49,526 nt of DNA from Bacteroidota bacterium (GTDB lineage Bacteria > Bacteroidota > Bacteroidia > Bacteroidales > VadinHA17): NCBI GenBank assembly GCA_003250475.1, contig QKGI01000032.1:1-49526 (forward strand), read 5' to 3'. A program made the translations under genes and the position numbers. The notes under the pieces are model-generated. The model saw only the letters and a list, made by a program, of their open reading frames with translations, searched no databases and had not been told where the DNA came from. Every line of letters starts with the position of its first letter. Position 1 is the stretch's first letter. This document shows positions 38,309 through 40,447 of this stretch, in pieces.

Positions 38309-38418
38309 TCAAGTCTACCGTTTTAATATTATTTAACTCTTTTGCACCTGTCGTTGTACTTATACAACATATTTCCATAATATTTTTAAATATATCTTTT
38401 GTAATTCCCGGAATCGTT

Positions 38419-38426
38419 TAAATTTG
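38419..38426 (+). promoter_or_regulatory. Candidate -7 box of the leader-lyase transcript
   Basis: TAAATTTG matches TAnnTTTG, with TTTG at 38398-38401, 17 bases upstream. It lies 20 bases before the leader peptide ATG. Confidence 0.5.
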
Positions 38427-38446
38427 CCGCTCAAATATTAAAGACA

Positions 38447-38509
38447 ATGCATTATTACCATAACCATTTCTTCTATTATTGTCGGTATTGGGATCCGGTA
38501 TCGACGTAA
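38447..38509 (+). CDS. Leader peptide rich in Tyr, His and Phe (attenuator)
   Basis: A 20-codon frame from ATG 38447 to TAA 38507-38509. The product has five Tyr, three His, two Phe and one Trp: 11 of 20 residues are aromatic or His, and eight lie within residues 2-11 (HYYHNHFFYY). This is far outside chance composition for noncoding DNA. It is placed between the -7 box and a terminator ahead of an aromatic-amino-acid lyase gene, which is the arrangement of a ribosome-mediated attenuator such as the tna or phe leaders. Translation is untested. Confidence 0.65.
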   Translation: MHYYHNHFFYYCRYWDPVST

Positions 38510-38550
38510 GCAGGATTAATGGTTGTTTAAGATATTACAGCAGATTTCGA

Positions 38551-38585
38551 TGGCTTACCAGGATAAGGTAGGCCATTTTTAATTT
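38551..38585 (+). terminator. Attenuator terminator before the lyase gene
   Basis: TGGCTTACC (38551-38559) pairs with GGTAGGCCA (38567-38575), nine bases with one G-T wobble, loop of seven, then TTTTTAATTT. GCTTAC in its left arm is also complementary to GTAAGC (38506-38511), which spans the leader stop codon. That gives a possible alternative pairing that would prevent the terminator. Confidence 0.65.
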
Positions 38586-38604
38586 AATTAATAACTAAAC
38601 GAAA

Positions 38605-40071
38605 ATGACTTCCAGTAACAGTGAGAACGAGGTGAAATTTTTCAGCGGCCGGACAGTGCCTCTTGAAATGCACAAGGTAAAAGTAGTACAGTCTGTCAAC
38701 CTTCCTGTGGTTGAGGACCGGCTAAAGGCAATTAAAAAGGCCGGGTTCAATACATTCCTATTGGAGACACCTGACATTTTCCTGGACATGCTCACTGACA
38801 GCGGCACAAATGCCATGAGCGACCAGCAGGTCTCAAAGATGTTCATTGCCGATGATGCATATGCCGGGTCACAGAGCTTTACAAGGATGAAGCAGGCCGT
38901 GCTGGATGTCTTCGGGAAAGAGATGGTACTGCCTGTCCATCAGGGCAGGGCTGCAGAAAATGTTATCAGCCAGATATTTGTGAGGCCTTCCACTTTTGTC
39001 CCCATGAATTATCATTTTACCACAACGCTGGCACATATTGAGCTACGCGGTGGTAAGGTGGTGGAGCTGTATAAGCCGGAGGCTATGAAAATAAAGAGTG
39101 ATCACCCCTTCAAGGGAAATATTGACATAGAGAGACTTGAGGAGCTCATCAGGAAAGAGGGCCGAGAGGCCGTATCATTCATCAGGATGGAGGCATCGAC
39201 AAACCTGATCGGAGGGCAGCCTTTCTCACTGGCAAACCTTAAAGAGGTCAGGAAGGTTGCCGACAGGTATTCACTGATGGTTGTGCTTGATGCCAGCCTG
39301 ATCGGTGAGAATGCCTATATGATAAAAAAACGTGAAGAGGCATATCATGATTCCGATCTCCGTTCTATACTTCGTGAGATGAGCAGCCTTGCCGACATAG
39401 TATATTTCTCAGCACGCAAGGTCAGTTCATCAAGAGGAGGGGCAATATGCACCAACAGCAAAGAGCTGTTTGAAAAGATGAAGGAGATTGTCCCGCTTTA
39501 TGAGGGTTTTCTTACTTACGGAGGTATCTCCGTCAGGGAGATTGAAGCAATAGCTGTAGGTCTGGAAGAGACCACCAGGGAAAACGTCGTGAACCAGTCC
39601 CCTTCGTTCATCGATTATATGGTAAAGGAGATTGACAGGTTGGGGATGCCTGTTGTTATGCCCGGCGGGGCTCTCGGGTGTCATATTGATGCCATGCAGT
39701 TCCTCGCTCATGTCAGGCAGGAGGAGTATCCGGCAGGAGCCCTGGCAGCTGCCTATTATATCGTCTCCGGCGTCAGGGGCATGGAACGTGGAACGGTAAG
39801 CAGCCACCGCGACAGCGAGGGCAGGGATATCCTCTCCGACCTCGAGTTGCTCAGGCTGGCAGTTCCCAGGCGGGTATTTACCCTCTCACAGGTGGAGTAT
39901 GTCATTGACAGGTTAAACTGGTTGTATGCCCACCGGGAAATGATCGGAGGTCTTCGCTTCGTTGAGGAACCGGCTGTTCTTCGCTTCTTTATGGGCAGGA
40001 TGGAAGCCATTGGCGACTGGCCGGAGAAGCTGGCCCTCCAATACAGGAAAGAGTTTGCAAACGGATTATAA
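38605..40071 (+). CDS. Beta-eliminating lyase, tyrosine-phenol-lyase/tryptophanase family
   Basis: 488 residues, fold type I PLP enzyme. The PLP lysine is Lys272 (SARK). Other conserved positions are HQGR, Tyr86 in DAYAGS, TNLIGGQP (substrate carboxylate) and Arg417 in LRLAVPRR. Residues associated with tyrosine rather than tryptophan are kept: the FTTT motif at 138-141 and the MERG Arg395. One key change stands out: DATR, whose Arg contacts the PLP phenolate, is DASL here (Leu232). It would degrade tyrosine to phenol, pyruvate and ammonia, but the change makes the activity uncertain. A leader peptide and terminator precede it. Confidence 0.85.
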   Translation: MTSSNSENEVKFFSGRTVPLEMHKVKVVQSVNLPVVEDRLKAIKKAGFNTFLLETPDIFLDMLTDSGTNAMSDQQVSKMFIADDAYAGSQSFTRMKQAVLDVFGKEMVLPVHQGRAAENVISQIFVRPSTFVPMNYHFTTTLAHIELRGGKVVELYKPEAMKIKSDHPFKGNIDIERLEELIRKEGREAVSFIRMEASTNLIGGQPFSLANLKEVRKVADRYSLMVVLDASLIGENAYMIKKREEAYHDSDLRSILREMSSLADIVYFSARKVSSSRGGAICTNSKELFEKMKEIVPLYEGFLTYGGISVREIEAIAVGLEETTRENVVNQSPSFIDYMVKEIDRLGMPVVMPGGALGCHIDAMQFLAHVRQEEYPAGALAAAYYIVSGVRGMERGTVSSHRDSEGRDILSDLELLRLAVPRRVFTLSQVEYVIDRLNWLYAHREMIGGLRFVEEPAVLRFFMGRMEAIGDWPEKLALQYRKEFANGL

Positions 40072-40213: not shown

Positions 40214-40289
<76 letters not shown>

Positions 40290-40297
40290 GGATCAAA

Positions 40298-40330
40298 AGC
40301 GAGGGAGCTGTTAGGCTCCCTTGCTTTTTC
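40298..40330 (+). terminator. Terminator after tRNA-Lys
   Basis: AGCGAGGGAGC pairs with GCTCCCTTGCT, with one wobble, loop TGTTAG, followed by TTTTT. A second, less regular copy lies at about 40408-40440. Confidence 0.8.
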
Positions 40331-40365
40331 AGACAGATGGCAGAGCATCCCGACTTTAGTCGGGA

Positions 40366-40447
40366 GGGTCCAGGGTTCGAGTCCCTGCAGACCGACCAGG
40401 ATCAAAAGCCAGGGAGCCGTTAGGCTTCCTTGCTTTTTCAGACAGAG
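40366..40447 (+). repeat. Duplicated 3' end of tRNA-Lys plus terminator
   Basis: About 82 bases nearly identical to 40257-40338: the T arm, acceptor 3' strand, CCA and hairpin of tRNA-Lys. Bases 40339-40365 before it resemble a D-arm piece (GGCAGAGCA), but the anticodon arm is replaced by a hairpin TCCCGACTTTAGTCGGGA, and the 5' acceptor strand is missing. It cannot fold as a complete tRNA. Offset is 109 bases. Confidence 0.8.

Follow-up and report, generated by a model that had tools for sequence, protein, structure and literature searches.

The gene for a tyrosine phenol-lyase (TPL)-like enzyme in the genome studied here is very probably preceded by a transcription attenuator of the trp/his/phe type, ribosome-mediated and specific for tyrosine, which would be switched on at low charging of Tyr-tRNA. 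The DNA analysed (hereafter the window, 49,526 nt) lies in contig C78 of a 3.47 Mb genome in 168 contigs. According to the proposed mechanism, scarce charged Tyr-tRNA would cause the ribosome to stall in the tyrosine codons of a short leader, leaving the strand GTAAGC (strand A) uncovered. Free GTAAGC could then pair with the 5' arm of an intrinsic terminator, and the TPL-like gene would be transcribed. With plentiful Tyr-tRNA, the ribosome would reach the stop codon and come to lie over GTAAGC, and the terminator would form. If the leader is untranslated, a protector hairpin is predicted to hold strand A, in which case the terminator would form too. The elements, their conservation, their spacing and their mutually exclusive pairings are evident in the sequence of the window and its relatives.

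The sequence-only reading of this region named a -7 box, a 20-codon leader with 11 aromatic or His residues, a terminator hairpin and the lyase start, in that order. All are present between 38419 and 38605 (Table 1) and the residue count is correct, with the -7 box falling just 5' of position 38447, where that reading began.

Table 1. Features of the putative attenuator and the gene it precedes, in window coordinates
Feature	Position	Strand	Remarks
-7 promoter box TAAATTTG	38419..38426	+	Bacteroidota TAnnTTTG
Leader ORF MHYYHNHFFYYCRYWDPVST	38447..38509	+	ATG...TAA, 20 codons; orthologous leaders (3-9 Tyr) present in 18 further genomes
Protector (1:2) hairpin GTCGGTATTGG-GAT-CCGGTATCGAC	38481..38505	+	predicted folds
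Antiterminator strand (A) GTAAGC	38506..38511	+	overlaps leader stop codon; partner is GCTTAC of the terminator 5' arm
Intrinsic terminator	38550..38580	+	5' arm ATGGCTTACC (38550-38559), loop, 3' arm GGTAGGCCAT (38567-38576), T-run
TPL-like PLP-dependent beta-eliminating lyase	38605..40071	+	488 aa; ATG at 38605; Pfam PF01212; NCBIfam NF009709 subfamily

Judged from the window alone, the evidence for a real element is suggestive. When the intergenic region was shuffled 5000 times with its dinucleotides preserved, 7 shuffles contained an equally aromatic- or His-rich ORF (about 1 in 700), and the RNA fold has a z-score of -5.5, with none of 200 shuffles being equally stable. The element is regarded as real and not as a chance arrangement because this layout recurs in front of orthologues from 16 other family genomes and two further MAGs (L066 and L068). 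Rfam searches at gathering and permissive thresholds returned tRNAs only, and positions 38400-38620 matched no curated family at the permissive threshold (E up to 5). As a separate observation, a partial second tRNA-Lys lies at 40310-40400, directly after the tRNA-Lys at 40214-40289. It repeats the 3' half, contains an anticodon-like TTT, receives no ARAGORN call and looks like a decayed tRNA gene.

Within the GTDB family of the window, 22 genomes of a sister genus encode orthologues of the lyase with 60-72% identity. Of 22 genomes sampled from the genus to which the window belongs, that of the window alone has the lyase. The closest orthologue-bearing records are Bacteroidales/Bacteroidetes MAGs (fen_974, GL140, UBA10805, ADurb.Bin145 and others). 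The leader is present at 17 of the 23 family orthologues (the window and 16 of the 22), and six are without it. With the two further MAGs, 19 distinct leaders are available, and the orthologues that follow them are 62-72% identical to the window protein. The recurrent order comprises a TAnnTTTG box at a similar distance from the leader, the leader ATG (GTG in L040), the Tyr run, GTAAGT(C), a stretch of 44-51 nt, GGCTTACC-loop-GGTAAGCC, a T-run and the gene. In the protein tree, 18 of the 19 leader-bearing genes form one clade with 98% SH-aLRT, L058 being placed outside, and the element therefore looks ancestral in that clade, with a few losses. No such leader was found at the sampled distant orthologues from Marinilabiliaceae, Prolixibacteraceae, Rikenella, Dysgonomonas and other phyla. 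In L041, both leader and terminator are degenerate. In L053, 5' of the TPL-like gene (G102), promoter and terminator are kept and the Tyr leader is lost. An unrelated inverted repeat, ACGACAAAT...ATTTGTCGT, occupies the place of the leader and possibly provides a different control.

The window leader contains five Tyr codons, of which codons 10 and 11 are adjacent, while Tyr14 is close to the switch. The 19 distinct leaders carry Tyr runs of 3-9 in frame with the start codon, using both TAT and TAC; examples from relatives are MDLVKLNISIYYYYYYYYYRIHT, MSISKLNIGIYYYYYYYRQITVSPVIN, MILSGCYYYHYYYYHGLPGVSQDW and MKSTNYNINSLYYYYRRLPRVGYGIGLC. Apart from the Tyr run, leader residues vary freely, and length, C-terminus and stop position differ. 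Tyrosine is the residue at the regulatory position that all 19 leaders share, His, Phe, Trp and Cys being incidental. Expression had been proposed to rise when charged aromatic or His tRNA is low. The direction of this proposal stands, and the leaders of the relatives narrow the sensing from His and aromatic residues in general to tyrosine. Histidine was ruled out as the sensed amino acid, as it is missing from most of these leaders. A pattern search for Tyr runs in eight genomes also returned matches away from TPL-like genes; those inspected were not leader-like, e.g., MYYYYYF without a terminator.

The spacing between codons and switch is compatible with control by a stalled ribosome. In 17 of the 19 leaders, the last Tyr codon of the run begins 14-20 nt before strand A, with a mode of 18, and the two exceptions (L044 and L040) contain a single additional Tyr past the run. 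The leader stop is located at -9 to +24 nt of strand A across the 19 leaders. Going by established ribosome footprints, a ribosome with this last Tyr codon in its A site leaves strand A free, whereas one at or near the stop codon covers it. Strand A has the sequence GTAAG(T/C), and its partner in the relatives is the terminator 5' arm GGCTTACC. The strand is read in frame as Val-Ser, runs across the stop codon (as in the window) or lies 3' of the stop, and because its frame relative to the leader differs in this way, it is conserved as RNA.

The terminator, followed by a T-run, is paired in 97.7% of the cells of the comparison, and three of its pairs have changed on both sides. Pairing of strand A with the terminator arm is kept in 88.8% of cells, compared with 16-53% for slid registers. 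This second pairing contains zero double compensatory changes, as the terminator arm shows almost no variation; the changes are one-sided, with A-U to G-U and U-A to U-G among them. Covariation supports the terminator and not the antiterminator pairing itself.

Folds constrained by a stalled ribosome contain 4-8 pairs between strand A and the terminator arm in all 19 cases. In the window, the fold without a ribosome contains the 1:2 hairpin, with an extension that pairs GTAA with TTAT of the leader. With a stalled ribosome the GTAAGC:GCTTAC antiterminator is predicted, only 6 bp long in the window, and with a ribosome at the stop codon the terminator. These folds agree with the proposal that GTAAGC at the leader stop can pair with the terminator sequence GCTTAC. 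Most relatives likewise have a predicted protector fold, with a different sequence. A codon run, an intrinsic terminator, an exclusive antiterminator and stall-compatible spacing are all found, as far as can be told from sequence. The attenuation logic put forward in the sequence-only reading, with an early stall turning the gene on and a ribosome at the leader end turning it off, is backed by conservation, geometry and folding; actual stalling, termination and tyrosine dependence would be expected to accompany it.

A covariance model whose only base-paired part is the terminator was run on 117 genomes of the family and 393 genomes of the order. The top matches are the leaders of TPL-like genes, and the window leader is the lowest-scoring of the 17 family leaders, with 61.8 bits. 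A second tier, at 39-51 bits, consists largely of attenuators before ilvD, hisG and pheA. Their leaders contain cognate codons and, in the cases checked, a strand complementary to the terminator; examples are MTRQLHHHHLYFSSFGK before hisG (His) and MVLYNKAYYYYYFYFSNKVR before pheA (Phe/Tyr). A few other weak matches are without such a leader. As the model independently recovers the hisG, ilvD and pheA leaders, these bacteria use one attenuator design, and in the cases named the codons of the leader correspond to what the controlled pathway makes.

Further examples come from the window's own genome. Its ilvD leader (Ile/Leu), MNFLSLYIIALILIATSA, is located at L226 (contig C93, 25282-25392) and has an antiterminator strand, TCCGGGAA, that is complementary to the terminator arm. 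Similar ilvD elements occur in five other genomes of the window's genus. The genome also contains a pheA-aminotransferase-tyrA-DAHP synthase-aroA operon (L193:2254-7634, contig C48), which has the leader MKTIFGHNYFFYYFYFQGKVGAE (Phe/Tyr) and its own terminator. In sister-genus genomes, the leader of the pheA operon is MNKVYKYFASYFYFYFYFKNR. Leader attenuation before Bacteroidota biosynthetic operons was noted earlier in Flavobacterium, together with structured 5' elements of pheA and hisG without Rfam matches (PMC9723704). For Bacteroidota, only general statements on leader attenuation were found (PMC9723704, PMC7366714), and the literature searched yielded no Tyr attenuator in front of tpl or tna.

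The element resembles the trp, his and pheA type attenuators of E. coli in its run of cognate codons, its stall-compatible spacing and its protector, antiterminator and terminator alternatives. It differs from them in using Tyr codons alone and in preceding a gene of the tryptophanase/TPL lyase family, which is no known biosynthetic operon. Control by starvation is unusual for the annotated degradative role of this gene and contradicts it.

The enzyme scores 575 bits against NF009709, the tryptophanase/TPL subfamily. Against the TPL equivalog TIGR02618 it reaches 450.7 bits, far below the cut-off of 720.7, and it is far under the TnaA cut-off too. The alignment to solved TPLs (EC 4.1.99.2; PDB 9j3u, 1c7g and 2ez1) is co-linear over 450 residues with about 40% identity, and the catalytic Lys is kept. 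Five residues separate TPL from tryptophanase, namely Thr124, Met288, Met379, Arg381 and Phe448 (PMC5805759). Four of them are kept in the window protein (T139, M393, R395 and the Phe of LRFF), whereas the position of Met288 is occupied by Phe302. The protein also differs from TPL in Arg217 (DATR), which is replaced by Leu232 (DASL), invariant in 14 aligned orthologues, and in an altered loop after the catalytic Lys that is one residue shorter (SARKVSSSRGG versus SGKKDCLVNIGG). The loss of Arg217 would leave room for a different reaction. Alongside this subfamily-wide loss of a PLP-site Arg, a new and nearly invariant Arg277 is found in the catalytic Lys loop. A separate TIL-type, true TnaA-type tryptophanase (NF053783, 818 bits) is encoded in the same genome, without a recognisable leader of the Tyr-attenuator kind. 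The gene neighbourhoods of 80 relatives contain no recurring partner that would name a function.

The TPL reaction is reversible. As hisG, ilvD and pheA carry the same attenuator design, it is argued that the enzyme may serve tyrosine supply, from phenol, pyruvate and ammonia or through other salvage, and not breakdown. This putative role is the simplest reading and is held tentatively, at somewhat below an even chance. The sequence-only reading had already raised a biosynthetic or different role for the protein, a reasonable suggestion that gains strength from the shared attenuator design. The more specific claim that the enzyme builds tyrosine from phenol, or salvages another phenolic, in vivo and is switched on at tyrosine starvation is doubtful, and the remaining probability belongs to ordinary or unknown enzyme chemistry. 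An evenly balanced proposition is that the attenuator works as described in front of an ordinary TPL or an enzyme of unrelated activity, the control having a purpose other than tyrosine supply. This rivals the assignment of the enzyme's role only and does not touch the attenuator. It is favoured by the TPL fold family and signature residues, and also by the full tyrosine pathway of the genome (the pheA-tyrA-DAHPS-aroA operon), which makes a second tyrosine source not obligatory. However, a tyrosine-destroying lyase would be counterproductive, because it would be switched on when tyrosine is short and more of it would deepen the shortage. The score below the TPL equivalog cut-off, the loss of Arg217 and the separate TIL-type tryptophanase likewise argue against an ordinary TPL.

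In the tnaC-tnaAB system of E. coli (the tryptophanase operon), a short leader peptide likewise precedes a beta-eliminating lyase from this enzyme family. The system acts through Rho, whereas the element described here combines a Tyr-codon run with an intrinsic terminator and follows starvation logic, and the contrast drawn in the sequence-only reading, in which the control is the reverse of tnaC, is correct. In tnaC, high free tryptophan leads to arrest of the nascent peptide (PMC8429421, PMC3902921). A comparable induction, in which the nascent leader would respond to free tyrosine or a phenolic, with the ribosome stalling at high tyrosine and degradation being turned on, would fit the degradative role annotated for the family, as tnaC does for tryptophanase (PMC8429421, PMC3902921), and would agree with the four of five TPL signature residues (PMC5805759). 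It is nevertheless very improbable: the leader peptide is variable beyond the Tyr run, unlike an arrest peptide, the intrinsic terminator is accompanied by a conserved antiterminator with stall-compatible spacing, and this RNA design recurs, with cognate codons, in front of hisG, ilvD and pheA. The notion of a short aromatic ORF lying by chance in AT-rich intergenic DNA beside an ordinary terminator, to which it lends some colour that at least five Tyr are not rare in a random ORF of the region (687 of 5000 dinucleotide shuffles), is refuted by the comparison, since leader, spacing, strand A and terminator are kept in 19 leaders despite substantial divergence.

From attenuators such as the tyrosine-specific one proposed here, the amino acid that governs a gene can be read off. 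As a tyrosine-starvation switch is placed on a gene annotated as tryptophanase/TPL, the finding suggests that a large and widely distributed subfamily, whose hundreds of relatives span several phyla, may carry a wrong degradative annotation. The attenuator offers a clear and cheap way to find out if TPL-like enzymes synthesise tyrosine under natural conditions. If they do so here, Bacteroidales would possess a second, phenol-based route to tyrosine.
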